Part shown: one piece after another, positions 3,990 to 55,035 of the stretch
How positions within the stretch are numbered: position 1 is the first letter of the stretch
How the letters are laid out: every line of letters starts with the position of its first letter
Origin: Porticoccaceae bacterium
GTDB lineage: Bacteria; Pseudomonadota; Gammaproteobacteria; Pseudomonadales; Porticoccaceae
DNA: 55,035 bases
Direction of reading: 5' to 3'
Assembly (NCBI GenBank): GCA_002702725.1
Contig: PABE01000006.1
Span: 1-55,035, forward strand
Notes under the pieces: generated by a model
What the model saw: the letters and a program-made list of their open reading frames with translations, nothing else
The model's database searches: none
Told to the model about the DNA's origin: nothing
Program-made: the position numbers and the translations under genes

Positions 3990-4050
3990 CGCTCATCCCA
4001 CCTCAACCACCAGAAAGAATGAACCAAATTTCTGCCGTGATTATACAGAT

Positions 4051-4507: not shown

Positions 4508-4597
4508 TGAATTCACGCGATAGACTCTCACTCATAAACGTGGGTGCAAAGGGCGAGATCCGTGGCTAAACCCGGAATATTAGTCGGTTGTTTGCAG

Positions 4598-4603
4598 TAT
4601 AAT
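4598..4603 (+). promoter_or_regulatory. Possible -10 element upstream of the AraC-type regulator
   Basis: A perfect TATAAT lies about 95 bases before the start codon of the AraC-family gene. No convincing -35 element is found at the proper distance, so an activator-dependent promoter or a chance match are both possible. Confidence 0.25.
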
Positions 4604-4697
4604 ATTGTTGTTACTATCACCCCGTATTATCACCGAGAACAGGGATTTGTCCGCTGGTCAAATACGCTAAAAGCAGCGACAACAACCGGGATCCGCC

Positions 4698-5579
4698 ATG
4701 TCGAGTATTCAGGTTCAGTCCTTCCATACTGAAGATCATTTTGTCAGTAATCTAGACAGTCAAGTAACTGGCCCTGGTTATGATATCGAAGCCCACCACT
4801 TGCAACTCCCTTCTACCGGGACAGGTATTTATCATTCGGAGACCCATTGTTTCCTTCAGCTTGTAATGGTCCCCGGGCACATCCTCCAGGGCACCTACCC
4901 CTGTTGGCACCAGAACCGCTCTGTAGGCCAGTTAGTATTTGTTCCCCCCGGAGCAACATTGGAGTGGCACTGGGCTTCCGGTAGCCAGCGCACAGTAACC
5001 TGCATGTTTGAGGTCGATAAAATTGGTGCACTCGGGGCTTATGATTGGGACTGGCGTGAGGTAGACCTCTACAAAACACTTGATATTCGAAATGACTACC
5101 TTGTCATGGGTATGCGCAAACTTTGGCAAGAAGCACGTTCGCCGGGCTTTGCGAGTGAGCTCCAGATCGAAAGTACATTGACGCTGATGGCGTTGGAATT
5201 GCGTAAGAATTTCATGAAGCGGACAGTGAACGCCGAACCAGCAAGGCATCGCTTGGCCGATTCAAAGCTGCGCTCTATCCGCGACTATATCCACGCCAAC
5301 CTTGGCAAGGGGCTTGCCCTGTCGGACATCGCAGAGTCCAACGGTCTGTCGTCTCGAGCGTTGTCGGAGCTGTTCAGAAATACAACGGGCATAACTATCC
5401 GGGAGTTTATTGCCAACGCTCGGCTTTCCAAGGCTAAAGCGCTACTCGCCAACCGGGAACTGCTAATCAAGCAGGTAGGCTATGACTGCGGTTTTCGCGG
5501 GGCCGCGGCGTTTGTGGCGGCGTTTCGCAAGGCTACGGGCATGACCCCGACGGAATACCGTCAGCGCTTTTGTTTATAG
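4698..5579 (+). CDS. AraC/XylS-family transcriptional regulator
   Basis: This protein has 293 residues. The N-terminal part (about 1-180) is a cupin-like effector or dimerisation region. The C-terminal 100 residues hold the two helix-turn-helix units of AraC proteins: LALSDIAESNGLSSRALSEL (first HTH) and IKQVGYDCGFRGAAAFVAAF with the family signature ending in TGMTPTEYRQRF (second). It probably controls the nearby receptor and phosphotransferase-like genes, since regulators of this class usually act locally, but no operator repeat was identified. It is separated from the core block by a convergent minus-strand gene. Confidence 0.88.
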   Translation: MSSIQVQSFHTEDHFVSNLDSQVTGPGYDIEAHHLQLPSTGTGIYHSETHCFLQLVMVPGHILQGTYPCWHQNRSVGQLVFVPPGATLEWHWASGSQRTVTCMFEVDKIGALGAYDWDWREVDLYKTLDIRNDYLVMGMRKLWQEARSPGFASELQIESTLTLMALELRKNFMKRTVNAEPARHRLADSKLRSIRDYIHANLGKGLALSDIAESNGLSSRALSELFRNTTGITIREFIANARLSKAKALLANRELLIKQVGYDCGFRGAAAFVAAFRKATGMTPTEYRQRFCL

Positions 5580-10478: not shown

Positions 10479-11462
10479 CTATTCGCGATTTGCCGGACCG
10501 CTATCCTCCAAAAGCCCATCCATTGGATTGATCATTGCCGGAGGCTCGACATTGGCTTCGTCCTGCTCCGGCTGATCGGGCTGATAGGGGGTCACCTTGA
10601 CCAGCAATCCCAGGCGGGGATGGTCGAGGTAGTGCAGGTCCTGATCGTTGATCCGTTGCCTGATTTTCATCAGGTCGATGTCCTGGATTGCGTAGCCGTC
10701 GGTCCCGTCGTCCCGGGTGGGTGTTCCCCTGGATGAAACAGGACTGCCGTCGACCACCGGCCAAAGTGCTGGGTCGGGACGCATGAAGGCGGGGAGGGGT
10801 TGGGTCATTTTCGGCAAACGGGGCAGTGCGGGCCACGGCTTCGCAGCGGTGTTACCCCCGTCGGATGGTCGCAGGGCGAGGGGAGCACCAAAGCGTGTTC
10901 GCCAGAGTCGGGTATCGATGGCTGTAAACCTGCCCGTATAAATTCTCAGGCTTCCCTCAAGCTCCCGGTGATTGCCAATGGTGGCGCCTCCGGTAATCAC
11001 CACCCAGGGGGTTGAATTTCGGGGTGATAGTCGCTGACGCCAGGCTTCGTGGAACAAGACCTGGTAGGTTCCAGATCGGCCCAGGGTATGGGCTTCGGGA
11101 TTGAGTGTTCGCTCCTGTTTGTCCAGTGTTCGGTAGGGCTGGGGCTGATCGTCGTCCCGCCGTTGTAAGGATGCCGCGGGAACCATCAGGGCCAGCAGCT
11201 GCCTATCCTGTTCCGACAATAACGCCAATTGCCCGGATTCATAGGGAACTGTCTCACCTGAACGCAGAAAAACCCGGGGTTTAGGGTAGTCCAGGGTGAT
11301 GGAGCGCAGGTTCTGCTCGTTTCGAGCGTCGTCCCGCTGGGCAAAAATGATCACTTCCACCTGATACCATGGCGTCGACGTGGTGTTGTCCTGGCCCTGT
11401 GCCAGCATCGGGAGGCCGCTCAGCAGTGCGGCGAGTAACGCGGTGGCGATAGTCCGTTTCAT
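10479..11462 (-). CDS. CsiV-like periplasmic protein
   Basis: This 327-residue exported protein has a signal peptide at 1-24 (ending LAQGQ) and the conserved opening WYQVEVIIFAQRD. The later segment YQVLFHEAWRQRL and a Pro-rich, poorly conserved middle match the CsiV family, described in Acinetobacter as binding peptidoglycan and acting with cell-wall enzymes. It starts five bases after the mfd stop and is therefore cotranscribed with mfd, the same arrangement as in pseudomonads. The C-terminal 30 residues are acidic and Pro-rich. The exact role here is unproven. Confidence 0.75.
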   Translation of the reverse strand: MKRTIATALLAALLSGLPMLAQGQDNTTSTPWYQVEVIIFAQRDDARNEQNLRSITLDYPKPRVFLRSGETVPYESGQLALLSEQDRQLLALMVPAASLQRRDDDQPQPYRTLDKQERTLNPEAHTLGRSGTYQVLFHEAWRQRLSPRNSTPWVVITGGATIGNHRELEGSLRIYTGRFTAIDTRLWRTRFGAPLALRPSDGGNTAAKPWPALPRLPKMTQPLPAFMRPDPALWPVVDGSPVSSRGTPTRDDGTDGYAIQDIDLMKIRQRINDQDLHYLDHPRLGLLVKVTPYQPDQPEQDEANVEPPAMINPMDGLLEDSGPANRE

Positions 11463-11467
11463 GGTGA

Positions 11468-14400
11468 TCAGGGTTGTGATTGTGGTGTAAGAGTGTCCAG
11501 CAAAGCGGACACGGTTTCCAGTCTTGTGTCACGGCTTTCCATCGGTACGGCGAATCTCAACTCCGTGGCGCCCGCAAGCCGGTAGCGTTCGGGCTGTTGC
11601 TGTACCAGTTGCACGATGGTGATGGGCTCGACGGGGGTGTCCCGCTTGAATTCCACCTTGCCGCCCCTGGCCCCCGCTTCGATGCGGGCAATGCCCAGGG
11701 CCTCTGCCCGTTGCCGGAGCAGTGCAATCCGGAACAGGGTTTTAGTGGCGTCCGGCAACAGGCCGAAGCGGTCAATCATCTCCACCTGCAGATCGCGTAT
11801 TGCTTCTTCATTTTCAGCGCCGCTGATGCGCTTGTACATGATCAGCCGCGTATTGACGTCCGGCAAATAGTCGTCGGGTATCAGAGCCGGAACATTGAGA
11901 TTGATCTCGGTGTTGTCGTGAAGGGAGTCCTCGATATCGAGGATTTTTCCCTGTTGCAGGGATTTGACGGCTTTTTCCAGCAACGACATATAGAGGCTGA
12001 ATCCGATGCTGTGGATGTGCCCGCTCTGGTCCTCGCCGAGTAATTCGCCGGCGCCGCGAATTTCCAGGTCATTGGTGGCGAGCGTGAAGCCGGAACCCAG
12101 ATGATCCGCCTCCGCCAGGGCTTCCAGTCGTTTGATCGCGTCATCGGTCATGGCGCGGGTTTCCGGGGTCATCAGATAGGCGTAGGCCTGGTGATGAGAG
12201 CGGCCTACGCGCCCCCGCAACTGGTGCAGTTGGGCCAGGCCGAACTTATCCGCCCGCTCGATGATAATGGTGTTGGCGGAGGGGATGTCGATACCGGTTT
12301 CGATAATGGTTGTACAGACAAGTACATTGAAGCGCTGGTGATAAAAATCCGACATCACCCGCTCCAGTTCCCGCTCCCGCATCTGACCATGGGCGAAATC
12401 GATTCGGGCCTCGGGCACGCGCTTTTTCAGTTCCTCGACGGCCCTTTCGATGGTTTTCACTTCATTGTGCAGGTAATAGACCTGGCCGCCGCGCAGGATC
12501 TCCCGCAGGACCGCTTCCCGAATGACCCGGTCCTCCCGCTGCCGTACAAAGGTTTTCACCGACAGGCGGCGGGCCGGAGGGGTGGCAATGATGGACAGAT
12601 CGCGAATCCCGCCCATTGCCATGTTGAGGGTGCGGGGTATGGGTGTGGCCGTCAGTGTCAGAATATCCACCTGGGCGCGCAGGGACTTGATCTTGTCTTT
12701 CTGCTGGACCCCGAAGCGGTGCTCCTCGTCAATGATCAACAGGCCCAGGTTTTTGAAGTCGGCCGGCGTATGGAGCAGTTTGTGGGTGCCGATGAGGATG
12801 TCCACCTTGCCGTCGGCGACCTGGTCGAGGAGGCCTTGCTGGCTTTTGGCGGATTTGAAACGCGAAATCACGTCGATGGTCACCGGCCAGTTGGCAAAGC
12901 GGTCGCGGAAGTTGTCAAAATGCTGCTGGGCGAGGAGGGTGGTGGGCACCAGCATCATCACCTGTTTGCCGCTGGCAACGGCGAGGAACGCGGCGCGCAT
13001 GGCCACTTCGGTCTTGCCAAAGCCGACATCGCCGCAGACCAGCCGGTCCATGGGTTGCGGCGAGCGCATATCCTTGAACACGGCGTCGATGGCGTCCTGC
13101 TGGTCAGGGGTTTCCTCGAAGGGGAATTCGGCACAAAAACGCTGATAGTCTGCGCCCGGATCACTGTAGCTGAAACCCTCTCGGGCCGCGCGACGGGCGT
13201 AGATGTCGAGCAATTCGGCGGCGGTGTCGCGAATCTGCTCGCTGGCCTTGCGTTTGGCTTTTGTCCACTGATCGGTGCCCAGTCGATGCAGTGGCGCCAG
13301 TGCCTCGTCGCCGCCGCCATAACGGCTGATCAGGTGCAGGTTGGCCACCGGTACGTATAACTTCGCGTCGTCGGCGTAGGCCAGGGCCAGAAATTCCTGG
13401 CTGGCACCGTCAACCGCCAGGGTTTCCAGCCCCCGGAAACGGCCGACCCCGTGGTCGGCGTGCACCACCGGCGCCCCGGGTTTCAATTCTGTGAGGTTGC
13501 GAACCACCAATTCGCTGTTGTCGCGACCGCGATTTCGCCGCCGTCGCTGCATGACCTGCTGGCCGAACAGTTGTGATTCAGTGATGATCCGAAGGGCCGG
13601 TTGCTCCAGTACCAGGCCCCGCTCCAGGGCAAAGGTAGTGATGGCGAGGGGCTCTGACCGGGAAACAAAATCCCCCCATGTGTCGACGGGGGCCGGTGCA
13701 ATGCCCGCGTCTTTCAACAGTTCCAGCAGGGCCTCCCTGCGACCGGAAGACTCGGCGCAAAACAGAGTCCGATGGTTTGTCGTGCTAAGCAATGTTTCCA
13801 GGGCCATTACGGGGCGAGCCGCCCTGCTGTCGATGGCGACCTCATCGGGCTGTCGGGCCGGGAAGTCCATGCTGCCGGCTTTGGCGGGTGCCGGGTGGGG
13901 TGAAAGATCAGTGCGCGGATAGCGGCCGAGGGCTCCAAACAGCTCGCCGGCGCTGAGGAACAGGTGCCGGGGTGCAAGCAGAGGTCGCGTCGGGTCGACG
14001 CCGTATTCTTCGTAGCGCTCCTGTACTTCCCGCCAGAACTGTTCTATTGCTTCCGGCAGTGCGCCTGTGGTCAGTACCAGCGCATCCTCGGGCAGGTAAT
14101 CAAAGAGGGTTGCGGTCTGGTCAAAAAACAGTGACAGGTAAGACTCAATGCCCTGGGGCGCGAAGCCGTCCTTGATGTCCTGGTAAATGGGGCAGCGGCG
14201 GGGGTCGACATCGAAATGGTCATGCCAATGGTCCAGGAAATGTTTGATGCCGGGCTTGTCCAGGGGGAATTCCCGGGCCGGCAACAGGCGAATTTCGTTT
14301 TGTTTTTCCAGCGTAACCTGAGTCTCCGGATCGAAACTGCGCAGGGTGTCGATTTCGTCGTCGAGCAGATCGATCCGAAAGGGCACGTCGCTGCCCATGG

Positions 14401-42617: not shown

Positions 42618-42698
<81 letters not shown>

Positions 42699-42840
42699 CC
42701 TCCCGGATTCCCTGCCTCGACGCCTTTACGCTTGCCTAACCGTTTGAGTTCCAACCTGTCAGAAATCGTTTTGCGGTTTCCCTTTGTTTCCTGAACCGCA
42801 GGCCCCATGCCAGGTTATTCCGCGCAGGTTGTCTAACAAC

Positions 42841-42864
42841 AAGCCCGGCGAATTTGCCGGGCTT
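42841..42864 (-). terminator. Hairpin terminator for the minus-strand OB-fold gene
   Basis: AAGCCCGGC and GCCGGGCTT form a perfect nine-base stem with a six-base loop. It lies 22 bases past the stop of the minus-strand gene, and on that strand is followed by GTTGTT, a moderately T-rich tail. It could also act in the other direction on a transcript leaving tRNA-Cys. Confidence 0.7.
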
Positions 42865-42886
42865 TCCCTGGACCTGCGCGACATCG

Positions 42887-43516
42887 TTATGAATCGCCTT
42901 TGAGCAGCGTGGTCACTTGCTCGGCTTCCATAATGCGGTCACTGAGCAATTTCTCCTTCATGGTTCCGCTGACACTGACCAGGTCACCGGTCTCGATTTT
43001 CTGGTAGCCGGTGTCATCCAGGGGGTCATAGACCATAGTCGCTGTATTGACGGTCATTTCCCTTGGGCCGGTGTCGATGCTGAATGTTGTATCGCCAACA
43101 TCCGTCACTGTTCCCTGAACGATGGTGCGGGCAACCATAATCGGTGTGGTAAGGGTGACAAAGCGGTCCTCCTCGTCGGCACTGCTGGCGTAGAAGTAGG
43201 TGCCAATGTTCTCGACGTAGACACTGTTGGCCTCAATGCTGGCTACCTCATAGAAATCATCGTCAATCAGGCCCGTGACCGTTACCTTGTCGCCTTTCAT
43301 GAGCTTGTAGGCATCGGCATCCCGGTCGCCATCATCCATCTCCACACTGATAGTGCCGTCGCCATAACTGAGGGCAAAGGAATCCCGCGTCACCGCTTCG
43401 ACCGTGCCGCTGATACTGATCCAGCTGTCATCGGGTTTTTCGTAAGGGTTTTGTGCTGAGGCTGCGGTGCCGATAAGCAGTGTGCCGATGGCTGTTACGA
43501 GCAACTTGCGAGTCAT
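42887..43516 (-). CDS. Exported OB-fold-like protein with two repeats
   Basis: This 209-residue protein has a signal peptide at 1-21 (LLVTAIGTLLIGTAASAQ). The mature part contains two similar strand-rich units: ISISGTVEAVTRDSFALSYGD up to KGDKVTVTGLIDDDFYE, and IVQGTVTDVGDTTFSIDTGP up to TGDLVSVSGTMKEKL. The repeated pattern G-T-V-x-V then G-D-x-V-x-V-x-G is that of bacterial OB-fold (BOF/DUF5666-like) domains, which bind ligands in the periplasm. The protein is very acidic. Function is unknown. A terminator follows, so it is a single-gene unit at the edge of the accessory module. Confidence 0.75.
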   Translation of the reverse strand: MTRKLLVTAIGTLLIGTAASAQNPYEKPDDSWISISGTVEAVTRDSFALSYGDGTISVEMDDGDRDADAYKLMKGDKVTVTGLIDDDFYEVASIEANSVYVENIGTYFYASSADEEDRFVTLTTPIMVARTIVQGTVTDVGDTTFSIDTGPREMTVNTATMVYDPLDDTGYQKIETGDLVSVSGTMKEKLLSDRIMEAEQVTTLLKGDS

Positions 43517-44016
43517 ACGGACCTCCTATCTCCGATTGTCGCTTTCAGACCTTGAAATAAAAAAAGCCGTAATACTGCGTCAGTTAAGTGCCTGAAAAGT
43601 TCCGGGTTAATGCTTGATGGCTGGCCCGCAATCCGCTATCCGGGTTCCGGGCAATTGTCCACGCTGAACTGATAAATAACGGCAATTTTGATGGTCGACG
43701 GGACAGGCGAGCCATTCTGCGAACGTTTTGATGGTGGCTTCCGCTGGAGCCCCGCCCCTTGATCAACCGATTGTGGGACGCAACGCTCATGCTATTTGAG
43801 CTGAATTCAAATACTTCACCCCTCAAAGTCGCCAGAACTGTGCTGAAATCGATGGGTGTGCAAACCAACGCCGCATATCGAATATTGCAAAAAAATAAAG
43901 TCTCGATCAGTTTTTCAGGGGTTAATGATCAGCCCTCCGTTTGCCAGATTCCGTGGCAGGGCGTGTTAAAGGTCACATAATCAATCCTATAACCGTAACT
44001 ATAATAGGGAATGGAA
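43517..44016. other. Intergenic region upstream of the second TonB receptor
   Basis: These 500 bases lie between two divergent genes. A TATAAT at 44000-44005 is too close to the receptor start to be its -10 unless the transcript is almost leaderless. An open frame at 43759-43980 (73 codons) shows no recognisable domain or good ribosome binding site and is not called. No terminator, tRNA or clear operator repeat was found. Confidence 0.4.
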
Positions 44017-46458
44017 ATGAACCGGATATTGTTTATTTCATCGGTGACGGCGTGTTCTCTCTTGTCGGCCGCTTCAGCGATGGGTGCCGAGCTGGAAGAG
44101 ATTATTGTAACGGCCCAAAAGCGGGAGCAGAGCCTTCAGGATGTGCCCATCTCGCTCGATGTTATCGGTGGTGAGGCATTGCGCAACGCGAAGATCGATA
44201 CCACTATCGATCTCGCCCTGGCGACACCGTCCATACATTTTCAACAGGCGTTCATTCCCCTCGCGTCGAGCTTTGGTCTTCGCGGGATCAATACCTATGC
44301 GACCAGCGGCGGACTCCAGCCGAGCGTGTCGTTTGTGATCGATGGCGTTCCGATTGCCCGGGTCGGTGAATTCCAGGCGGAGCTTGGCGATATAGAACGG
44401 GTGGAGATCCTCCGCGGTCCCCAGGGAACCCTTTTCGGGCGAAATGCTACGGCGGGGGCCATTAATGTGGTCCGCAAGAAGCCGACCGAGGCGTTCGAAG
44501 GATACGTTGAAGGCAGTATCACAGACGATGACGAGTACATCGTTCGCATGGGTGTCAGTGGTCCTATCACGGATCGGGTGCGCGGTCGTCTTGCCGCTTA
44601 CTCGAAGCAGCTCGATGACTATATCGACAACCTTCATCCCTTGGCGGATGACGAAGGCGGTGAGGAAAATTTCGGCCTGTTGGGCAAGCTGGATATTGAT
44701 GTAAGTGACAGTGTTAACGTCCTTTTGACGGCGGAGTACAGCCGTCAAAATACCGATCTTTCCCCGAGTGTTACCATCGTTGCCGACACTATTCCGGGAA
44801 TCGGAGCGATCCGTGAAACGGCGCTTGGCAATGGTGATATAGCCCTTGGACAGTCGGTGATCCGGGATCTGAATAAAATCAATGTTAATGAGAATTCCTT
44901 TGCCGACACTATAAATAAGGGCATTGCCGCTGATTTGACCTGGCAGCTAAAGGACGGCCTGACCCTCAAGTCAATCTCGGCGTACCGGTCCTGGGAAGTG
45001 GGCAGCGAAATCGACGTCGATGCGACACCGGCAAACCCCGAAAATACCATGTTCATGCCCATTGTCGGCTGGAATCGCAGTAATCTGCATCCCGGTGGTA
45101 GCAGTGCGCCCGGATACTTCTTCGAGACAGATTACTTCAGTCAGGAGTTGCGACTTGAAGGTAGCGGCGAGCCCCTGGACTGGGTTGTGGGCGGCTTTTA
45201 TCAGATCTATACCGACGGGAATGCCCAGGAAACTCCGCTGTTGCAAGTCGACTATTTCTTTGAACCCGGGCTTGGCTTGCCGGGCGATGGTATTCTCGGA
45301 AACAATTACTATTTCTTCACCGATCCGGTCAAAGCTGAAGCCGAATGGGAAACCTGGGCGGCATTTGGCGATGTTACCTGGCATATCACCGATAATCTGA
45401 ATCTTTTTGCCGGCTTGCGCTGGACGATGGAGGATACCCGCATGAACCGGTATTCCCGTCGGGTCAGTATCGGCCCTGCCGAAGCGCCTTTTTACGATGT
45501 TGTAAATCCGGATTTTGTTGTTATTGACCTGGATGCGTTGGCGGCGGACCCACTGTGGTCGTTGTTCCAGTCCACGACGAAATTCAAAGCGGAGGATCGC
45601 GCGGAAGACTGGTCAGGACGCATTGGCGCATCCTGGGATGTGACCGACGATATTAATGTCTATATCACTGCCTCGCGAGGTTTTGTCGGCAGTGGCATCA
45701 AGTTTGGTCGTGATTCCTCGCCGGATAATACATTCGTGGATCCCTCTATTGCGGAATCCTATGAACTCGGCTTGAAGGCCGATTGGCTTGACCGGGGTTT
45801 GCGAACCAACCTGGCGCTGTTCTGGACTGAAGTTGTCGATCTGCAAACCTCGCGCCTCATCCCCGGAACCGTTCAAACCACGACATTTAACGCCGGCGAT
45901 CTGCGTTCCCACGGCCTGGAGGCGAATATTTCGTGGAATGTGACCGACCAGCTGATGATGGACTTTTCGGCAACCTGGATGGATACAGAGGTCAAGGACT
46001 TGCTCCAGCCCTGTTATCCCGGTCAACCCCAGGGGGCCGGCGAGTGTGAGTTTGATAACAATAATGACGGAACAGCCGACCTTCAGGATCTCGACGGTAA
46101 GAGTGGTGTTATGGCACCTGACCTGGCCTACAGGGCGCTGGTGCGCTACGACATTATGTTCGATACGCTGCCCTTTGATGGTTTTGCGCAGGTCAGTTAT
46201 ACCTGGCAAGACGATATTCAATTCCGCCTTACCTACGACCCCATGACTGAACAGGATGCCTATGGCCTGACAGATATCGTGGTCGGGATTGAAGACAGGC
46301 AGGGGCGATATACCGTGTCTGTGTTTGGCAAGAACATCGGTGACGAAGAGTTCGTCAATAACCTTGATTCCGCAGACGGTGTCATTGGCCGTGTCTTCGG
46401 CAGGGTAACCCGCCAGGCGCAGGCGTATTACGGAATCAGGGCCAGATACAATTTTTAA
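44017..46458 (+). CDS. TonB-dependent outer-membrane receptor
   Basis: This 813-residue protein has a signal peptide of about 25 residues (MNRILFISSVTACSLLSAAS), a TonB box-like EEIIVTAQK just after cleavage, the plug motif VEILRGPQGTLFGRNATAGA near 125-145 and a long barrel ending FYGIRARYNF-like (YYGIRARYNF) with the terminal Phe required for assembly. The start at 44017 was chosen because AGGGA lies seven bases upstream. A six-base-upstream ATG is less well placed. It heads a run of same-strand genes with an MBL protein and a molybdoenzyme. The substrate is unknown; it differs clearly from the receptor at the left end. Confidence 0.92.
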   Translation: MNRILFISSVTACSLLSAASAMGAELEEIIVTAQKREQSLQDVPISLDVIGGEALRNAKIDTTIDLALATPSIHFQQAFIPLASSFGLRGINTYATSGGLQPSVSFVIDGVPIARVGEFQAELGDIERVEILRGPQGTLFGRNATAGAINVVRKKPTEAFEGYVEGSITDDDEYIVRMGVSGPITDRVRGRLAAYSKQLDDYIDNLHPLADDEGGEENFGLLGKLDIDVSDSVNVLLTAEYSRQNTDLSPSVTIVADTIPGIGAIRETALGNGDIALGQSVIRDLNKINVNENSFADTINKGIAADLTWQLKDGLTLKSISAYRSWEVGSEIDVDATPANPENTMFMPIVGWNRSNLHPGGSSAPGYFFETDYFSQELRLEGSGEPLDWVVGGFYQIYTDGNAQETPLLQVDYFFEPGLGLPGDGILGNNYYFFTDPVKAEAEWETWAAFGDVTWHITDNLNLFAGLRWTMEDTRMNRYSRRVSIGPAEAPFYDVVNPDFVVIDLDALAADPLWSLFQSTTKFKAEDRAEDWSGRIGASWDVTDDINVYITASRGFVGSGIKFGRDSSPDNTFVDPSIAESYELGLKADWLDRGLRTNLALFWTEVVDLQTSRLIPGTVQTTTFNAGDLRSHGLEANISWNVTDQLMMDFSATWMDTEVKDLLQPCYPGQPQGAGECEFDNNNDGTADLQDLDGKSGVMAPDLAYRALVRYDIMFDTLPFDGFAQVSYTWQDDIQFRLTYDPMTEQDAYGLTDIVVGIEDRQGRYTVSVFGKNIGDEEFVNNLDSADGVIGRVFGRVTRQAQAYYGIRARYNF

Positions 46459-46463
46459 TCCGC

Positions 46464-46487
46464 AGGGCCGCTTCGCGGCGGCCTTTC
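46464..46487 (+). terminator. Weak hairpin after the second TonB receptor
   Basis: GCCGC and GCGGC with a TTC loop, flanked by partly pairing AGG and CCT, are followed by only three T. It may reduce but not stop readthrough into the next gene. Confidence 0.35.
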
Positions 46488-46547
46488 ATTACGGCAACTG
46501 TTGGCATTTGCTCCCCTGTAGCCCAGTGCTGTTTTCAGGAGGCTTGT

Positions 46548-48329
46548 ATGTCAATAAGCGCAACGGTCCATCGGTTTATTTATATTGGGTTGATCGCTAT
46601 TACGTCATCCGTCGTCGATGCGACGCCGCTATTCTACCGGGGCGATATGGACGACCGTATAACCAAAGCGGAAAACGGCGCGATCATTAACGGCGACTAT
46701 TTAAAGGCCCTCGCTTCCGGTCCCTATGGTGAAGTCAACGTTATACGGGTGACGGACCGCATCACCACCGTCACAGGCTATGCCAACGCCAATTTCACTT
46801 TTATCGAAACCGATAATGGGCTGATCGCCGTCGATGCCGGGAGCAATATCGGCCAGGCCCGCGGCGCTCTGGCGATGTTGCGGGAAATTACCGACAAACC
46901 CCTGATAGCGCTGATTTATACCCATCATCACTACACTGGCGGTGCGGGTGAATACCGCCGCCTGTATCCGGAAATGGACGTTTACGGGCATCCGGATGTT
47001 GACAGCCATCTTCAGACAACAGCGGGCGTCCTCGGGCCAAAACAGGCTCGAAACGTGGGTCGCATACTCGGGTTGTACCTGCCCCACACCGGGCCGGACG
47101 GGGTGGTCGCGACGCCGGAGGTACAGTTTGACGATCCGGCCCTGAACGTTAACCGTCATGTGCAGGTGAGCCACCCGGTCGAGGACGGGGAAACGGTTTG
47201 GATAGACGGCCTTGAAGCGATCTTCTACCACGCGGTGGGGGATACCCGGGACAGCCTGATCGTGCATTTCCCCTCCCTCGACCTGGTGATACACAACACC
47301 GGCCTGTTGCCGACCCTGGCACCTCTCTCCACATTGCGTGGTGAGTACTATCGAGATCCGAGTGATCTGATTGTCAGTATTGATAAACTGCGGCAGTTGC
47401 GCGCCCGCTACATGATCCCATCCCACGGGTTCCCGACCATGAGTGCCGAGGAGGGTTACGAGGCGGCCACCGCCCATCGCGATGCCTATTCATTCATTTA
47501 TTACCAGTCGATACGTGCCATCAATCGGGGGCTCTCCCCGGATGAAATGGCACGCACTGTCCGGCTGCCGCCCCATTTGGCCCAGCATCCATTGCTGCAA
47601 CCCACCTACGTCGATAATGAGTACAACGTGCGAGCCCAGTATCGCGGTCTTGTCGGCTGGTTCGACGGTGATGGCGCCAGTCTCCATCCCCCTGAAAATG
47701 GGCAAATAGGTCAGGTGTTGATCGAAGGGTTTGGCGGCGTCGCCAATGTGTTGGACCGCATTCGCAAGGCCCAGACAGAACACGATTACAACCTGGCGGC
47801 TACCCTGGCGACCTATATCCTTGGGGTAGAGCCCGACCATGCCGGTGCAAGGCAGCTGAAAGCGGATGCGCTAAGGGCGATGGCCCAGGCCACACCATCC
47901 ATGCAGACCCGAAATTACATGCTCACCCAGGCGCTGCATCTGGAGGGCAAAATCGACTGGGCGAAGCCCCCTTCTGCCGCATTGTTCCGGGCCAATACTG
48001 TCGACACCATTCTCGATACGCCACCGGGCACCTATCTGGAACTGCTCCAGGTAAGAATTGACCCGGTGAAAAGTGCCGATCTGGACACGGGTGTCGCGGT
48101 CGAGTTTACCGACCTCGGACGAGTCTGGACGCTTTATGTGCGCAGGGGTGTTGTCGAAGTGGTCGAGACCCGGGAGCCTTTGGTGAAGAATATTCTCAGC
48201 CTGCCGCGGCCTGTCTGGGCGCAGGTGGCCAGTGGCGATTCGTCAGTGGCTGCGGTGCTCGATTCCGGCGCTGCCTCGTATACGGGCGACCGGGCGGCCA
48301 TTGAGGCGGTATTCGCCGTCTTTGACTGA
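46548..48329 (+). CDS. Alkylsulfatase-like metallo-beta-lactamase-fold protein with altered metal motif
   Basis: This 593-residue protein has an N-terminal signal-like helix (FIYIGLIAITSSVVDA) and then the SdsA/YjcS architecture: a metallo-beta-lactamase fold (about 60-320), an alkyl-sulfatase dimerisation domain (YNLAATLATYILGVEPDHAGARQLKAD near 405-432) and a C-terminal SCP2-like sterol-carrier domain (LDTPPGTYLELLQV near 485 onward). Canonical enzymes carry H-x-H-x-D-H; here residues 125-132 read THHHYTGG, so the Asp and the last His are lost. It may bind one metal differently or have another activity. The export signal and the receptor next door fit an envelope role. A GGAGG ribosome binding site precedes the start. 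Confidence 0.82.
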   Translation: MSISATVHRFIYIGLIAITSSVVDATPLFYRGDMDDRITKAENGAIINGDYLKALASGPYGEVNVIRVTDRITTVTGYANANFTFIETDNGLIAVDAGSNIGQARGALAMLREITDKPLIALIYTHHHYTGGAGEYRRLYPEMDVYGHPDVDSHLQTTAGVLGPKQARNVGRILGLYLPHTGPDGVVATPEVQFDDPALNVNRHVQVSHPVEDGETVWIDGLEAIFYHAVGDTRDSLIVHFPSLDLVIHNTGLLPTLAPLSTLRGEYYRDPSDLIVSIDKLRQLRARYMIPSHGFPTMSAEEGYEAATAHRDAYSFIYYQSIRAINRGLSPDEMARTVRLPPHLAQHPLLQPTYVDNEYNVRAQYRGLVGWFDGDGASLHPPENGQIGQVLIEGFGGVANVLDRIRKAQTEHDYNLAATLATYILGVEPDHAGARQLKADALRAMAQATPSMQTRNYMLTQALHLEGKIDWAKPPSAALFRANTVDTILDTPPGTYLELLQVRIDPVKSADLDTGVAVEFTDLGRVWTLYVRRGVVEVVETREPLVKNILSLPRPVWAQVASGDSSVAAVLDSGAASYTGDRAAIEAVFAVFD

Positions 48330-48412
48330 GGCACGCAAGGCCTGCTCATGTGGCGGTAGAGGCTGTAATGCGCCACACTCAAACCTCAGTGCGAAGTTGG
48401 ATAACCATAACG

Positions 48413-50590
48413 ATGAACGAACGTTTTACGGAACCGAACCCCAAGCCGGCCGTGGCGGCCGGTGACACCGTCGAGAAAAAGTCCTTTTGCCGTATCTGTA
48501 CCGGGATGTGTGGCACCGTGGTTACCCTCGACAGGGAAGAGCGAGTGGTCGCCGTCCATGGCGACAGGGACGATCCCCAGAGCCTGGGGTTTATCTGTTC
48601 CAAGGGTGCCAATGCCCCCGAGGCCCACAACCACGAGGGCCGCATATTGCATCCCCTGAAACGGCAGGCGGATGGCTCCTTCAAGGCCATACCTCTGTCC
48701 CAGGCCCTCGATGAGATCGGCGACAGGCTGGCGGCGATCTATCAGGAGCACGGCCCGGAAGCGATAGCCGCCTACCGGGGTTCCGGCTGCTTTTTTTCCT
48801 CTGTGCTGTTGTCCCTGGTACCCGAGTGGATGGCTGCGCTGGGCAGCCCCAAGTTGTTCTCGACCCTGACCATCGACCAGTCCGCGAAGCTGGTGGCCAT
48901 GGGGCGCCTGGGTTACTGGCCCCCCGGACCCCAGAATTTTCAGGACAGCGATGTGACCCTGCTGATTGGCAGCAACCCGCTGGTGTCTATTGCCAATCTC
49001 GATATGCGCCACCCTTTAAAGCGGTTGAAAGACGCAAAAGACCGGGGCATGACCCTGATCGTCATCGACCCCCGGCGCACCGAAACCGCACAGTATGCGG
49101 ATATTTTCCTTCAGCCGCTGCCGGGCACGGACGGGGTTATCCTCGCCGCCATGCTGCGGCTGATTATCGACGAAGGCTGGCACGACAAAGCCTTTTGCGA
49201 ACAGCACGTGGGCGACCTGCCATCCCTGCGACAGGCAGTGGAGCCCTTCACCCTTGACGCGGCCTCGGCTGTCGCCGATGTGCCGGCGGAGCAGATTCGG
49301 GAAGCCGCGGCGGCATTTGCCCGCGATGGCAGTAAAGGCTGTGTCCGTACCGGTACAGGGCCCGATATGGCGCCGTTTTCCAACCTCAATGAACACCTGG
49401 CGGAATCCCTGAACATTGTCTGTGGCCGCCTTATCCGGGAGGGGGAAGCGATACCCAATGCCGGTTTTCTGATGGGCCGGGGCCCGCGACCGGCACAGGT
49501 GGTGCCGGCCCCCAGGCCCTGGGAGAGCGGGCCGAAATCCCGTATCGGCGGCTATGGCCTTATCGGCGGGGAGATGTGCACCGGTGTTCTGGCCGATGAG
49601 ATCCTCGAGCCAGGCCCGGGTCAGATTCGTTTCCTGCTCAACCATGGCGGCAATCCGGCACAGGCGGTACCCGGTCAGCGCAAGATGGTGGATGCCCTTA
49701 AAAGCCTGGAACTCATGGTCAGTATCGAGCCCCATATGACCCCCAGCGCCAGGCTGTCGGATTATATTATTCCGCCCAAACTGCAATACGAGCGCGGGGA
49801 CTTTCCCATCTATATTTTTGAACCGAACCTGTCGCCGCGACCCTACACCCGCTACACGCCCCCCGTGGCGAAACCGCCGGCGGACGCGGACGTCTGCGAT
49901 GAATGGTACGTGCTCTGGGCGCTTGCCAAACGTCTGGGCAAAAACCTGACCTGCATGGGTGAGCCCCTCGATATGGAAACGCCGCCCACGGAAGAACAGT
50001 TACTGCGGTTGACCAGCAAGAATGCCCCGGCGTCCTTCGACGACATTGCCGCCGAGCCGCTGGGATATTTCCTTGAAGGGGAGCCGGATATCGCACTGCC
50101 CCCAGACCCCGCCACCGCCGGCAAGTTCTCCCTGATGCCCGACGATGTGCGCGATGAAATCACCGGTCTCTGGCAGCGTCGGGAGGAACTGGTGGCCCGC
50201 GATAGCTACCCGTTCCGGCTGATCAGCCGTCGCAACCGGCACCGCTTCAACTCCATGGGCTTTACTCAGCCCCGCATTCGCAAGTTGCTGCCCTATAACC
50301 CTGCGTACCTGAATCCGGATGACATGGCGCGGCACGGGATTGGCGAAGGCACCATCATACGAATTCGGTCGGAGCAGGGCAGCCTGACCGCCATTGCCGA
50401 AGCGGACGACGCCCTGAGGCCGGGAGTGATCTCCATCTCCCACGGCTTTGGGGATCTGCCCGGCGAGACCGATTACCAACGGGATGGGGTCAACCCGAAT
50501 TTGCTGACAACAGCGGATACCGAACGGCAAACCATCAACGCCATGCCAAGAATGAGTGCCATACCGGTAACACTGGAAAAAACGGCGTGA
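48413..50590 (+). CDS. Molybdopterin-dependent oxidoreductase (DMSO-reductase superfamily)
   Basis: This protein of about 725 residues has an N-terminal 4Fe-4S site with Cys26, Cys29, Cys33 and Cys62 (FCRICTGMCG, FICSKG), the central molybdopterin domains (LIGSNPLVSIANLDMRHPLK, IVIDPRRTETAQYADIFLQ) and the C-terminal dinucleotide-binding domain (LISRRNRHRFNSMGF, ISHGFGDLPGETDY). No twin-arginine signal is present, so it is cytoplasmic. Asp155 in TLTIDQSAK sits about where the Mo ligand is found in relatives, a tentative reading. No dedicated electron-transfer or membrane subunit is adjacent. The start at 48413 was chosen because upstream codons are not protein-like. The substrate is unknown. 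Confidence 0.88.
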   Translation: MNERFTEPNPKPAVAAGDTVEKKSFCRICTGMCGTVVTLDREERVVAVHGDRDDPQSLGFICSKGANAPEAHNHEGRILHPLKRQADGSFKAIPLSQALDEIGDRLAAIYQEHGPEAIAAYRGSGCFFSSVLLSLVPEWMAALGSPKLFSTLTIDQSAKLVAMGRLGYWPPGPQNFQDSDVTLLIGSNPLVSIANLDMRHPLKRLKDAKDRGMTLIVIDPRRTETAQYADIFLQPLPGTDGVILAAMLRLIIDEGWHDKAFCEQHVGDLPSLRQAVEPFTLDAASAVADVPAEQIREAAAAFARDGSKGCVRTGTGPDMAPFSNLNEHLAESLNIVCGRLIREGEAIPNAGFLMGRGPRPAQVVPAPRPWESGPKSRIGGYGLIGGEMCTGVLADEILEPGPGQIRFLLNHGGNPAQAVPGQRKMVDALKSLELMVSIEPHMTPSARLSDYIIPPKLQYERGDFPIYIFEPNLSPRPYTRYTPPVAKPPADADVCDEWYVLWALAKRLGKNLTCMGEPLDMETPPTEEQLLRLTSKNAPASFDDIAAEPLGYFLEGEPDIALPPDPATAGKFSLMPDDVRDEITGLWQRREELVARDSYPFRLISRRNRHRFNSMGFTQPRIRKLLPYNPAYLNPDDMARHGIGEGTIIRIRSEQGSLTAIAEADDALRPGVISISHGFGDLPGETDYQRDGVNPNLLTTADTERQTINAMPRMSAIPVTLEKTA

Positions 50591-50682
50591 TTGATCAGAG
50601 TGTTTTTTGATTGCCGCACCGGGAATGGCATGACATAGAACCCGGTCAGACGGGAAATCACCTTCCTGGGATCATAGCAAGC

Positions 50683-51531
50683 ATGTTTAAAAAAGTACTC
50701 CGCGAGCCTCTGGTGCACTTTTTTTCTGTGGCCCTGGCTCTTTACGGACTGTTCCTGTGGGCCGAGAGCCAGCGGGAGGCACCTATTCGGATCAGTCAGC
50801 AGCAGCTCGATCAGTTCGCGGAGTACCACCGCACCCGGTTCGGAAACACCCCGGATCGGGCCGCCGTGGATCGTTACGTCGATGAACTGGTCACAGAAGA
50901 GACCCTTTATCGCGAAGCGCTGTCATTGGGCCTCGATGAAAACGACGTCATCGTTCGCCGCCGGCTGGCCCAGAAAATGGAATTTCTGCTGCGGGATGGC
51001 GGCTTCGTCGAGACGCCGGACGACAACGCCCTGCGGGACTACTTCAACGCCCATTCCGCGCGTTACCGGCCCTCACCCCGTGCCACTTTCGTTCAGCTGT
51101 ATTTCTCCCCGGATCGCTCGGCCTCGCTCTCCGCGGTGGATCGGGCCAGCGCCACGCTCACTTCGCTGACCGCGGATACCTGCAGTGACCTGCCGAAAAG
51201 TGATGCCGACCGCTTCCCGGGTGGCGAGCGGTGGGCCGACCAGACCCCCGACAGCCTCCGCCGCACCTTTGGTGATTTTGCCCTGACCGAGGCGGTATTC
51301 ACCACGCCGGTGAATCGCTGGCAGGGGCCCTATGAATCCGGTCTCGGCTGGCACCTGCTCTGTGTTACCCACCGGGATAACGGCGCGCCCCCGCAATTCA
51401 GTGCGGTTAAAAGCCAGGTTCTGCAGGATTACCTCAACGATGCCCAGGCGCAGCGCTACAACCGGAGTCTTGAAGACCTTAAGTCCCGCTATGTGGTGGA
51501 GTTGCCGGTATCGGGGGCCGGGGCGCAGTGA
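50683..51531 (+). CDS. Membrane-anchored parvulin-like peptidyl-prolyl isomerase
   Basis: This 282-residue protein has one N-terminal helix (VHFFSVALALYGLFLWA near 10-26) and a periplasmic part. Residues 40-120 resemble a SurA/PpiD-type chaperone region (VDRYVDELVTEETLYREALSLGLDENDVIVRRRLAQKMEFLL), and 130-240 resemble a PPIC rotamase domain that is poorly conserved (VQLYFSPD, FGDFALTEAVFTTPVNRWQGPYESGLGWHLL). It should assist folding of exported proteins. The ATG at 50683 is the first after a gap of 92 bases. The stop overlaps the following HupE-like gene, which implies coupling. Confidence 0.82.
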   Translation: MFKKVLREPLVHFFSVALALYGLFLWAESQREAPIRISQQQLDQFAEYHRTRFGNTPDRAAVDRYVDELVTEETLYREALSLGLDENDVIVRRRLAQKMEFLLRDGGFVETPDDNALRDYFNAHSARYRPSPRATFVQLYFSPDRSASLSAVDRASATLTSLTADTCSDLPKSDADRFPGGERWADQTPDSLRRTFGDFALTEAVFTTPVNRWQGPYESGLGWHLLCVTHRDNGAPPQFSAVKSQVLQDYLNDAQAQRYNRSLEDLKSRYVVELPVSGAGAQ

Positions 51532-52547
51532 GGGTGCGCGTGGTGTGGCTGGTCTTGCTGGCCCTGCTCATGGGGGGTTCCGCCGCCGGCTGGGGCCATG
51601 AACTGCGCCCGGCGTATTTCCAGATCAACGAAACCCGGGGTGAACTGCACCTGACCTGGAAGCAGCCTGTGCGCGGTGACATGGCACTGAAACTGGTTCC
51701 CCGCCTGTCCAGCGGCTGGCTGGCGCGCACGCCGGTGTCCTCAATCAACACCGGCGACTACCTGATTCGCCAGTGGCGCATTCCGGCCACGGAAGCCACG
51801 GCCCTGCACGGCACGACTTTTCGGGTCGAGGGACTGGAAAAATCCATCGCCGAAGTCATGGTGCGGGTTGATACCCCTGATATGGCATTGACCGCTGTGC
51901 TGACCCCGGCGGCGCCACAACTGGTCCTGGTGGAAGAGCAGGGTGCGTCTGTCCCGGCCTATCTGGGCATGGGGTTCGATCACATCCTCGAAGGCGTCGA
52001 TCACCTGGCCTTTGTGCTGGGGCTTATCCTGCTGGTGGGCTTTCGGCGGCGGCTGATCTGGGCCGTGACGGCCTTTACCCTGGCACACTGTCTGACCCTT
52101 TACCTGGTAACCGCCGGGGTTTTCCTGTTGCCGTCGCCGGTGGTCGAGACCCTGGTGGCAATCAGTATCGTGTTCCTGGCCCGGGAAGTGATTCGCCGGC
52201 GGCGGGGCGGTACGAGCCTCGCGATTCGCTATCCCGCGGTACTCGCCTTTCTGTTCGGGCTGATCCACGGTTTTGCCTTTGCCGGCGCCCTGGCGGACAT
52301 CGGTTTTCCGAAGGAGGGGGTGTGGCAGGCACTGCTATTGTTCAACCTTGGCGTGGAACTGGGGCAGATCGCCTTTGTGGCGGCGGTCTTTGCGACAATG
52401 ATTGCATGGCACAAGATTGTTAGGTTGACAAAGGCTGAGCGCATCCACGCCGCAATACACCCTTTGGCTGCCCCCTGCGGGACCTATGCCATCGGCAGTT
52501 ATGCCGCCTTTCTGGTGCTGCAGCGGCTGCCTCTCATTGTTCAGTGA
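51528..52547 (+). CDS. HupE/UreJ-2-like membrane protein
   Basis: This 339-residue protein has a signal peptide (VVWLVLLALLMGGSAAGWGHE), a periplasmic domain of about 110 residues and then six or seven helices. The HupE/UreJ hallmark is present: GFDHILEGVDHLAFVLGLIL near 145-164 and AFTLAHCLTLYLV near 183-195, with LFGLIHGFAFAGAL near 243-256. The conserved His and Asp residues are those proposed to bind metal ions in the family, which includes nickel, cobalt and possibly copper carriers. No hydrogenase or urease genes are here, so the metal is unknown. It starts four bases inside the foldase gene. Confidence 0.88.
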   Translation: MRVRVVWLVLLALLMGGSAAGWGHELRPAYFQINETRGELHLTWKQPVRGDMALKLVPRLSSGWLARTPVSSINTGDYLIRQWRIPATEATALHGTTFRVEGLEKSIAEVMVRVDTPDMALTAVLTPAAPQLVLVEEQGASVPAYLGMGFDHILEGVDHLAFVLGLILLVGFRRRLIWAVTAFTLAHCLTLYLVTAGVFLLPSPVVETLVAISIVFLAREVIRRRRGGTSLAIRYPAVLAFLFGLIHGFAFAGALADIGFPKEGVWQALLLFNLGVELGQIAFVAAVFATMIAWHKIVRLTKAERIHAAIHPLAAPCGTYAIGSYAAFLVLQRLPLIVQ

Positions 52548-52566
52548 TTACTTCGGGATAACTATT

Positions 52567-54492
52567 ATGAAAAAAACACTCGTCGCCTGCCTGTTCTTCG
52601 TTCTTGCCGGTTGTGAAAAGCCCGAATACGAACCACCGGTAAAAACCACCTCGGTACCGCCGCCGGTGCTTAAACCGGTGGTTGAGTCATCCACTTCCCC
52701 CGCAGATCGGCAACCTTTTTACGGCGACCTGCATTTGCACACCGGTTGGTCATTTGATGCCTGGGGCATGTACGGGATGCAGACCACGCCGGCGGAGGCG
52801 TATCAATTCGCCAGCGGGGAGGCGATAGATTTTATGGGCCACCGGGTACAAGCCCGCCGGCCACTGGATTTTGTTGCCGTCACCGACCATGCCGAATACC
52901 TGGCGGTGCTCAACGAGCTTGACGACCCCGAAAGCGAACTTTCCCTTTCCGAATTCGGCGAGCGCTTTCGCGAACACCCGTTTCAGGCCTTTGGTGCCAT
53001 TCACCATGCCTACACCCAGGATGGGCCACTGCCGGAATTCGATTACGCGGGGCTGATGCGTTCGGCCTGGGCGCGGATGATCGAGGCCGCCAACCAGTAT
53101 TACCAGCCGGGCCGATTTACCACCCTGATCGGCTACGAATGGACCGCCATGCCCGAGGGGAAGTACAACCTGCACCGCAACGTGATTTTCAGGGGCGATG
53201 ACGCCCCCGAACCCTTCGATGCCAGTAAGTCCCAAAATCCGGAAGACCTGTGGACCTATATGGAAGGGCTGCGCGAGCAGGGGTATGAACTTCTTGCCAT
53301 TCCCCACAACAGCAATGGCAGTGGGGGCTACATGTTCGACTGGGTGGACCGGAAGGGCGATCCCATCAGCAAAGCCTACGCCGAGCGCAGGCAACGCAAC
53401 GAGCCACTGGTGGAGGTGTTCCAGGGCAAGGGTCAGTCGGAGACAATGCCCGCCATATCCCCGAATGACGAGTTCGCCGATTTCGAAGTGCTGGAAACCC
53501 TGCTCACCAGCGGCGAAATCAGCGAACCGGCGGGCAGCTACGCCCGCGATGCACTGGGCCGCGGCCTGGTGCTGGAACAGCGGACCGGTATAAATCCCTT
53601 CAACTTTGGCATGATCGGGTCGTCTGACTTTCACAATGGCCTCAGCACCAGTGAGGAACGGGAATTTACCGGAAAAAACTGGGGTGTTGACCCCGAATCC
53701 GGCATGGTCACAAGGGAAGAGGCCGCCAAAACCCTGGCCCAGGCAGGCAAAAACGCTAAAAGCGACAGTGACTGGGATTCCCTGAATGGCAAATCCCAGT
53801 CGGACCTCGTGACCGATCTGACCATTGTCGGCTCCGCCGGCCTTGCCGGTGTCTGGGCGGAAGAAAACACCAGGGAGGCCATCTACGACGCACTGGCCCG
53901 AAAGGAAGCCTTTGCCACCTCCGGCACCCGTCTGCGCATTCGCCTGTTTGCCGGCTGGCAATACCCTGAAACCCTCGCCGCAGACCCCGACTGGGTGGCG
54001 AAAGCCTACGCTGGCGGCGTGCCCATGGGCAGTGATCTTGCAGCACAGCCTGACAATACGGAAAGTCCGCACTTTATGGTCTGGGCTGGCAAGGACCCGG
54101 ACGGCGCCAACCTCGACCGGTTGCAGATTATCAAGCTCTGGCTCGCGGATGATGGCTATCAGGAGAAGGTCTACGATGTGGCCCTGTCCGATGGTCGGGC
54201 GCCCGATCCTGTCACTGGCAAAGTTGCAGCCGTGGGTAATACCGTCAACCTTCAAACCGCAACCTATGAAAACAGCATTGGCGATGCCGCGCTTGCCACC
54301 GTCTGGCAGGATCCGGACTTCGATCCCGCCGTGCCCGCCATCTATTACGCCAGAGCCATTGAGATTCCCACACCCCGCTGGACCACCATACTCGCCAGCC
54401 GATTTGACTTGCCCCTGCCAGACAACGGTCGTCCCACCCTGCAGGAGCGGGCGGTGTCGTCCCCGGTCTGGTTAAAGCCACAGGCACAGTAA
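52567..54492 (+). CDS. DUF3604 lipoprotein
   Basis: This 641-residue protein has a lipoprotein signal ending LAGC at Cys16, a Pro-rich linker to about 48, and a large domain beginning FYGDLHLHTGWSFDAWGM near 51-68. The paired His56 and His58, VAVTDHAEYL and LIGYEWTAM resemble the PHP metal-hydrolase fold, which DUF3604 proteins share. Function is not established. The 20-base gap to the HupE-like gene suggests cotranscription. The residues after Cys16 are Glu-Lys, so the lipoprotein probably goes to the outer membrane through the Lol system. Confidence 0.88.
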   Translation: MKKTLVACLFFVLAGCEKPEYEPPVKTTSVPPPVLKPVVESSTSPADRQPFYGDLHLHTGWSFDAWGMYGMQTTPAEAYQFASGEAIDFMGHRVQARRPLDFVAVTDHAEYLAVLNELDDPESELSLSEFGERFREHPFQAFGAIHHAYTQDGPLPEFDYAGLMRSAWARMIEAANQYYQPGRFTTLIGYEWTAMPEGKYNLHRNVIFRGDDAPEPFDASKSQNPEDLWTYMEGLREQGYELLAIPHNSNGSGGYMFDWVDRKGDPISKAYAERRQRNEPLVEVFQGKGQSETMPAISPNDEFADFEVLETLLTSGEISEPAGSYARDALGRGLVLEQRTGINPFNFGMIGSSDFHNGLSTSEEREFTGKNWGVDPESGMVTREEAAKTLAQAGKNAKSDSDWDSLNGKSQSDLVTDLTIVGSAGLAGVWAEENTREAIYDALARKEAFATSGTRLRIRLFAGWQYPETLAADPDWVAKAYAGGVPMGSDLAAQPDNTESPHFMVWAGKDPDGANLDRLQIIKLWLADDGYQEKVYDVALSDGRAPDPVTGKVAAVGNTVNLQTATYENSIGDAALATVWQDPDFDPAVPAIYYARAIEIPTPRWTTILASRFDLPLPDNGRPTLQERAVSSPVWLKPQAQ

Positions 54493-54691
54493 CCTGAGGA
54501 CGGCGAGTAGGGGAGCGCGGCACCGCGGGTAATCGTTGAATTGACGGGCGCATCTGGTAGTATTGCCGCCCTGTTGCTGCCCGTCTTCAGCACTTGGTCC
54601 AGTCCCATCATGCACCGGCCCGCGGTGAAGACACCAACGAGCTTTACGGGTTATTGAGCGCAGTAACCGACAGCAAGGCCCCCTCAAATAT
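54493..54691. other. Gap before the tRNA-Leu region
   Basis: These 199 bases contain no gene. A possible promoter, TTGAAT at 54537-54542 and TAGTAT at 54559-54564 with a 16-base spacer, lies about 130 bases before the tRNA-like sequence. It could drive the tRNA-Leu locus. Confidence 0.35.
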
Positions 54692-54735
54692 GCCCGGGTG
54701 GCGAAATTGGTAGACGCAAGGGACTTAAAATCTCT
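54692..54735 (+). pseudogene. Orphan 5' half of tRNA-Leu(UAA)
   Basis: The first 35 bases (acceptor 5' strand GCCCGGG, D-arm, and half of the anticodon arm) agree at 32 positions with the second copy at 54913-54947. The anticodon stem-loop is complete: AGGGA, loop CTTAAAA with anticodon TAA, TCTCT with one G-T pair. After that no variable arm, T-arm (GGTTCGA) or CCCGGGC 3' acceptor strand is found up to the next copy or to the window end. It cannot form a tRNA by simple processing. Confidence 0.75.
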
Positions 54736-54912
54736 AATGTCAACCGTTTTGAAGAGGTGGCGATGTGGCTGAAAGCCAGGCAGCATAAGGCTTTCAGCGG
54801 GATTTAAGCTTTACGGTTGAATTGAAATTGGCTCGCTAGGTGTCAAATAGGGGCCACTAGAACCAAAGAAGACGTAACAAGCCTGGTAAAATCCAGGCAA
54901 ATGTAAGACCAC
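54736..54912 (+). other. Hairpin-rich spacer between two tRNA-Leu 5' halves
   Basis: TCAACCGT at 54740-54747 pairs with ACGGTTGA at 54813-54820. Inside it GCTGAAAGCC at 54768-54777 pairs with GGCTTTCAGC at 54789-54798. Further on, GCCTGG at 54881-54886 pairs with CCAGGC at 54893-54898. Such nested perfect stems in 177 bases suggest a structured RNA or the remains of one. It codes for no evident protein. Confidence 0.55.
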
Positions 54913-54947
54913 GCCCGAGTGGTGAAATTGGTAGACACAAGGGACTT
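54913..54947 (+). tRNA. tRNA-Leu(UAA), 5' exon (partial, split by an intron)
   Basis: The sequence GCCCGAG, D-arm GTGAAATTGGTAGACAC and the anticodon 5' strand AGGGACTT match bacterial tRNA-Leu(UAA) up to U34. It is then interrupted: instead of the 3' anticodon strand, a group I intron begins at 54948. The 3' exon, expected to end in CTCGGGC plus CCA, lies beyond the window end. Confidence 0.85.
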
Positions 54948-55035
54948 AAACAATTTGAGCCCTCCAGGGGAAACCCTGAAGGTGAAGCCCGTCAAACTCG
55001 GCGAAAGCCCTGGATCGAGATAAGTATCCGAGCCA
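54948..55035 (+). ncRNA. Group I intron (IC3-like) in tRNA-Leu(UAA), 5' part
   Basis: The insertion point, after the first anticodon base, is that of the cyanobacterial tRNA-Leu(UAA) intron. P1 can form between exon CTT (54945-54947) and intron GAG (54957-54959) with the U-G wobble at the splice site. P2 is a nine-position stem at 54961-54969 and 54974-54982 (one mismatch) capped by a GAAA tetraloop. GTCAAACTCGGCGAAAGCC at 54991-55009 matches the P3/J3-4/P4/P5 core, and CTCGG (54997-55001) pairs with CCGAG (55028-55032) as P4. The layout also matches the Azoarcus tRNA-Ile intron. The 3' part with the guanosine site (P7) is cut off. Confidence 0.88.

Follow-up and report, generated by a model that had tools for sequence, protein, structure and literature searches.

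A putative rescue tRNA-Leu(UAA) with a group I intron, carried by a conjugative element that splits the native gene

The window, a stretch of 55,035 nucleotides from a Porticoccaceae bacterium (GCA_002702725.1, contig PABE01000006.1, forward strand), ends inside a tRNA-Leu(UAA) gene that is interrupted by a group I intron and lies about 180 nt inside the left end of a mobile element. The reading that we favor, with a probability of roughly 0.8, is that this gene is a rescue tRNA borne by a conjugative element (ICE) and that its intron hides the replacement from the element's own integrase. The initial annotation of the window identified the intron correctly; its suggestions that such an intron is rare and of cyanobacterial source were not supported, and it overlooked both the split native gene at 54692-54732 and the mobile element.

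Intron-bearing tRNA-Leu(UAA) gene

The 5′ exon of the putative element-borne rescue gene, GCCCGAGTGGTGAAATTGGTAGACACAAGGGACTT, occupies 54913..54947 on the + strand and ends at U34, and the intron starts at 54948, both as initially annotated. The first 88 of the 251 nt of the intron are present in the window (54948..55035, + strand). A search of the window's own genome (G000) identified the window as the end of contig C47, with position 55035 falling within the intron. Contig C59 of the same genome starts with an exact 75-nt copy of window 54961-55035 and runs on through the remaining intron (C59 76-238), the 3′ splice site and the 3′ exon (C59 239-292). Joining of C47 and C59 yields a 340-nt gene, in which the 251-nt intron has G as its last base and contains no protein gene; when the intron is removed, ARAGORN returns a perfect 89-nt tRNA-Leu(taa) with a full cloverleaf. 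The rest of the intron, ending in G, and the tRNA 3′ exon that had been expected beyond the window are found on C59, together with P7 and P9, and the exons form the acceptor GCCCGAG...CTCGGGC. In this genome, which is a draft bin with 91% completeness, the element is spread over three contigs (C47, C59 and C97). The join between C47 and C59 is supported by contiguous homologues of the intron-bearing gene in two relatives, G032, where it is uninterrupted on one 226-kb contig (89% identity), and G030 (74% identity).

The Rfam model Intron_gpI (RF00028; gathering score 50 bits) matches the C59 part, in which the 5′ end of the intron with P1 is cut off, at 33 bits (E 6.7e-6), short of that score, and it scores 27.9 bits in the genome search. 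An Rfam scan of the last 5 kb of the window gave no match because only the first 88 nt of the intron are present there. Alignment of 107 distinct homologous introns gives stronger evidence than the Rfam score: the helices P1, P3, P4, P6, P7 and P9 hold. P7 (GAGCA/UGCUC) is paired in 103-107 of the 107 introns, with double changes at three pairs, in which G-C is exchanged for C-G, C-G for U-A, and A-U for U-A or G-C. P3, P4, P6 and P9 are mostly paired, and in P4, P6 and P9 the pairing is maintained with base changes. The P1 strand GAG (54957..54959, + strand) lies opposite exon CUU, and all 107 introns have a U-G pair at the 5′ splice site. The 5′ strands of P3 (CCGUC, 54989..54993, + strand) and P4 (CUCGGCG, 54997..55003, + strand) have their partners on C59; P3 is paired in 82-99% of the 107 introns, while five of the seven P4 pairs are formed in every intron, with changes, and the outermost in 68/107. 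The terminal G was demanded during intron extraction and is hence informative for the window intron alone. On these sequence features, the insertion after U34 of tRNA-Leu(UAA) is a group I intron with P7 covariation and a probable IC3-type core, the IC3 label following from its order of elements and insertion site. The initial assignment of such an intron to a gammaproteobacterium was right, and the precursor would be spliced to a normal tRNA.

Split native gene and ends of the element

Three features precede the intron-bearing gene in the window, all on the + strand: half of the native, intronless tRNA-Leu(UAA) of the host, from the 5′ end to the anticodon loop (54692..54723); the 9-nt attL core CTTAAAATC, comprising the anticodon loop plus 2 nt (54724..54732); and a left end of the integrative element of about 180 nt (54733..54912), for which GACTTAAAATCNNNNNTGTCAA is a marker sequence. 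From 54692, the first 41-44 nt share up to 98-100% identity with intact intronless tRNA-Leu(UAA) genes in relatives. Over the whole of 54692-54912, identity at the corresponding position reaches 92% for G032 and 84% for G427, while other relatives match the tRNA part alone; the stretch has no plasmid or phage match, and the left-end pattern has no match in IMG/VR. The exon types of the two genes differ, the intron-bearing gene having GCCCGAG...CTCGGGC and the upstream half gene GCCCGGG. This indicates that the intron-bearing gene is a second, foreign gene; it is of betaproteobacterial type and not the host's own. We had also considered the upstream half gene as the scar of a whole-gene replacement, an idea that was dropped when the far half of the native gene in G032 revealed the ICE.

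In G032, the native 3′ half (CTTAAAATCCCTCGG...TCCGGGCACCA) is located 62,084 bp downstream of the 5′ half on one contig, where it adjoins a tyrosine recombinase, and the rejoined halves give a perfect tRNA-Leu(taa) with acceptor GCCCGGA/TCCGGGC. In the window genome, C97 holds a tRNA 3′ half plus an integrase 98% identical over 397 aa to that of G032, and the 5′ half of the window joined to the 3′ half of C97 gives a perfect tRNA-Leu(taa) with acceptor GCCCGGG/CCCGGGC. The core CTTAAAATC recurs at the right end on C97 beside the integrase, as well as in all recovered host-half pairs, with differing flanking bases. At the right boundary, the bases preceding the core (GACTACCG) are identical in G000, G032 and the same-genus genome G001, and the tRNA half beyond the core differs in each. 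G001 has the integrase and 3′ half, and no left end was located in its assembly.

Between the two ends in G032 are encoded Phage_integrase, RadC, ParA, a DUF3363 relaxase, a coupling protein, a VirB11-like ATPase, CagX/TrbG and TrbI. The presence of relaxase, coupling protein and type IV secretion genes between the split halves identifies the 62-kb element of G032, by gene content, as a conjugative element (ICE) that starts with the intron-bearing gene. Both genomes have the integrase and att repeats at the element ends; the relaxase and type IV secretion genes are those of G032, and the window genome has RadC, DUF736 and DUF2958, carried on C59, in addition to the integrase.

Integrases about 62% identical to the ICE integrase, in three genomes (G164, G378, G370; L276, L277 and L278), were considered as family members and left out, as they adjoin terminator-like hairpins and not tRNA-Leu. 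They form a sister group with another target, and integrases of this kind occur in 119 PLSDB plasmid records, on many large, mostly conjugative plasmids. We also note another tyrosine-recombinase element, at L257 in a relative (G438:C37, 1512-2570), which splits tRNA-Leu(UAA) just past AAAATCCC; a search of that genome with the 5′ exon pattern found no intron-bearing rescue gene.

The usual upstream neighbor of tRNA-Leu(UAA), as Cys-Leu neighbors in relatives attest, is tRNA-Cys, which ARAGORN places 12 kb away in the window (42618..42691, + strand). The intervening ~12 kb (42692-54691) encode a TonB-dependent receptor, an MBL-fold protein and a molybdopterin oxidoreductase, as named by eye. 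Just inside the rescue tRNA, G000:C59 (L216) encodes an E2-ThiF-JAB fusion and metallo-beta-lactamase-like proteins at 353-5319, and G032 (L217) an LA2681-like HEPN protein at 10531-13713; this variable content looks like exchangeable defence cargo. Several relatives of the same family have 25-nt copies of the tRNA-Leu(UAA) 5′ end at ~140-nt spacing upstream of the gene (four in a row at L220 1466-1910; L223 1581; L224 1682; L227 1451; G032:C8 19663). Each copy is followed by a conserved, apparently structured stretch, and Rfam finds only tRNAs at these places. The copies are reminiscent of the repeats at E. coli tyrT.

Occurrence in other genomes

The arrangement is found well beyond the window genome. 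In at least 26 further named loci, an intron-bearing gene is preceded, at a distance of 197-352 nt, by a host 5′ half that breaks off at the same core; the hosts include Lysobacter, Stenotrophomonas, Pseudoxanthomonas, Rhodanobacter, Variovorax, Ottowia, Hydrogenophaga, Eoetvoesiella and Nitrotoga. In 30 such loci, a varied set of host halves (27 distinct, 86% mean identity) stands against a near-constant element exon (4 forms, 98%). The host 3′ half was recovered in 11 genomes, those of the window and G032 included, and every rejoined pair is recognized as a tRNA-Leu(taa). Halves from the same genome pair at 11.5 of 12 stem positions, compared with 9.7 when swapped, and the total for own halves was unmatched in 100,000 permutations, in a set that kept one false pair, L130, which counts against the result. 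L130, not among the 11, comes from an ICE-bearing bin that also has an intact intronless tRNA-Leu(UAA), and its 3′ half is part of a separate intact gene. In 10 of these 11, counting the query copy of G032 (100%), the 3′ half has an integrase of 70-98% identity next to it. Elements with both ends on a single contig measure 62 kb (G032), 51 kb (L119), 41 kb (L085) and 14 kb (L111). Remnants also occur: about 1.5 kb of element is left at L169, which is without integrase and retains the rescue gene, and at L121 the rescue gene is next to a degraded integrase and a mutated host half.

The attachment core is intact in none of the 30 rescue genes, and the intron interrupts it in 30/30, a count biased by the fact that most of the 30 came from a pattern requiring the intron. 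About five left ends were found without that requirement, G032 and G427 by DNA similarity plus three, of which two were new, from a set of 398 Lysobacterales genomes, and all have the intron.

Proposed mechanism and alternative explanations

From the comparisons above, the tyrosine recombinase of the ICE acts on CTTAAAATC, a core of 9 bp within the anticodon loop of the tRNA-Leu(UAA) gene of the host. That gene is thereby split, its 5′ half lying at window 54692-54732 and its 3′ half on C97. Insertion at this core, the split of the host gene and a complete replacement in the same orientation ~180 nt inside the left end are shown by comparison of the sequences. The complete tRNA-Leu(UAA) carried by the ICE would then take over from the broken host copy. 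In G000 and G032, the split native gene and the ICE copy are the only tRNA-Leu(UAA) genes found, so the ICE gene is the only candidate for reading UUA in these genomes. No sigma-70-like promoter was detected in 54480-54950, and the rescue gene is perhaps expressed from the host tRNA promoter. As the intron breaks the 9-bp core, the rescue gene should escape the integrase; the intron would bar from it the ICE integrase and others targeting this loop, and splicing would restore a normal tRNA. Of all the steps, shielding by the intron is the one of which we are least sure. We lean, at slightly better than even odds, to a broader statement: that a wide ICE family breaks the essential tRNA-Leu(UAA) and makes the host depend on an element copy hidden by its intron from the integrase, and that group I introns have also been spread and fixed in proteobacterial tRNA genes in this way.

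The alternative that survives best accepts the rescue tRNA as real and gives the intron no protective part; it would be a neutral passenger that arrived when the element captured a tRNA-Leu gene of betaproteobacteria. We consider this possible, at odds clearly below even: the intron and broken core of every rescue gene seen, including the few left ends found without the intron requirement, speak against it, while introns of the same clade do occur in rows without an ICE left end, some of them in ordinary Gly-Cys-Leu clusters, and other tRNAs of the class commonly have group I introns.

A second alternative is a normal tRNA-Leu(UAA) of the chromosome, interrupted by a group I intron and either inherited or acquired on its own, with an unrelated duplication as the upstream half. 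Cys-Leu(intron) neighbors do exist in G030 and Thiotrichaceae, yet the two-ended ICE on one contig in G032 contradicts this explanation, the left end is missing from most relatives, the matching host 3′ half lies beside the integrase in 10/11 genomes, and the rejoining and permutation tests support the host-half pairs; we judge it very unlikely. An assembly or binning artefact linking unrelated contigs, which the end of the window within the intron and the need for three contigs in G000 might suggest, is more improbable still given the same arrangement on the single contigs of G032, L119, L085 and L111.

The ICE-borne rescue tRNA, as we read it, would let the old proposal that tRNA introns protect against integration be tested directly in bacteria: there is a single integrase with a single 9-bp target, and versions with and without the intron occur naturally. 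A ribozyme would thereby become part of how a conjugative element lives. The system may also account for the uneven distribution of tRNA-Leu introns among proteobacteria, and it suggests addiction of the host to the element through an essential tRNA.

Distribution and origin of the intron

The rarity in gammaproteobacteria that had been supposed for this intron is not borne out, introns at the same site being common in beta- and gammaproteobacteria. The exact pattern of a tRNA-Leu(UAA) 5′ exon running into such an intron is present in at least 119 stretches in named genomes, nearly all from these two groups. In a sample of 369 genomes of the class, RF00028 has matches in 56, with tRNA-Ile(CAU) and tRNA-Thr making up most of the best-scoring loci. 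Interrupted tRNA-Leu-TAA genes with putative group I introns were reported earlier in Thiomargarita and Beggiatoa (PMC4853749). In six loci (L078, L090, L107, L170, L182 and L184), no 3′ exon was found within the usual distance of the tRNA-Leu(UAA) introns; their extra sequence is mutually similar and could encode a homing endonuclease.

In a maximum-likelihood tree of 117 introns, the window intron groups with those of G032 and G427 (100/100) within a proteobacterial clade of 73 rows (97/95). The single cyanobacterial row is outside this clade, beside tRNA-Ile and tRNA-Thr introns. The tree thus gives no support to the cyanobacterial donor initially proposed, and a recent horizontal transfer from marine cyanobacteria, for which the insertion site identical to that of the cyanobacterial tRNA-Leu(UAA) intron would speak, appears highly improbable, though one row is thin evidence.

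Comparison with known systems

The window intron shares with the cyanobacterial tRNA-Leu(UAA) and Azoarcus tRNA-Ile IC3 introns a site in the anticodon loop (after U34 in tRNA-Leu), the U-G pair in P1, the P3-P9 core, the terminal G and the lack of an internal protein gene. It is unlike these in its location on an ICE within a complete replacement tRNA gene, and in its proteobacterial clade. The P7 of the Azoarcus intron is GACUA/UAGUC, compared with GAGCA/UGCUC here. The gene backbone of the G032 element is that of a Tn4371-like ICE (RadC, DUF736, DUF2958, DUF3363 relaxase, TraG and Trb genes), and the Tn4371-type attachment site differs from the tRNA-Leu(UAA) anticodon loop used here. In contrast to Tn4371-like ICEs, the G032 element has this anticodon loop as its site and carries a whole intron-bearing tRNA.

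The introns of Thiomargarita and Beggiatoa (PMC4853749) are also gammaproteobacterial and interrupt the same tRNA, and Thiotrichaceae rows are included in the tree. Unlike the window intron, the Thiotrichaceae introns found here are in Gly-Cys-Leu clusters, have another P7, belong to another clade and are without an ICE end. In Pasteurellaceae, the 11-bp direct repeat of ICEMh1 and ICEPmu1 is a tRNA-Leu anticodon loop and one disrupted copy remains (PMC6861422). That tRNA-Leu, in contrast to the one described here, is for UUG and is completed at one element end, and no intron is reported for it (PMC6861422).

Randau and Soll, as cited in PMC4390854, regarded disrupted archaeal tRNA genes as retained for protection against integration. 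In Caldiarchaeum, an archaeal element brings a tRNA intron, and exclusion of other elements was suggested (PMC3293823). The archaeal guard idea is alike in that integration would be blocked by an intron lying in attB, which the element itself may supply; the archaeal introns are cut by an endonuclease, as opposed to a bacterial ribozyme located in a complete rescue gene. Among 5.39 million open-access papers, our search found no earlier account of an ICE that carries a complete rescue tRNA interrupted by a group I intron.
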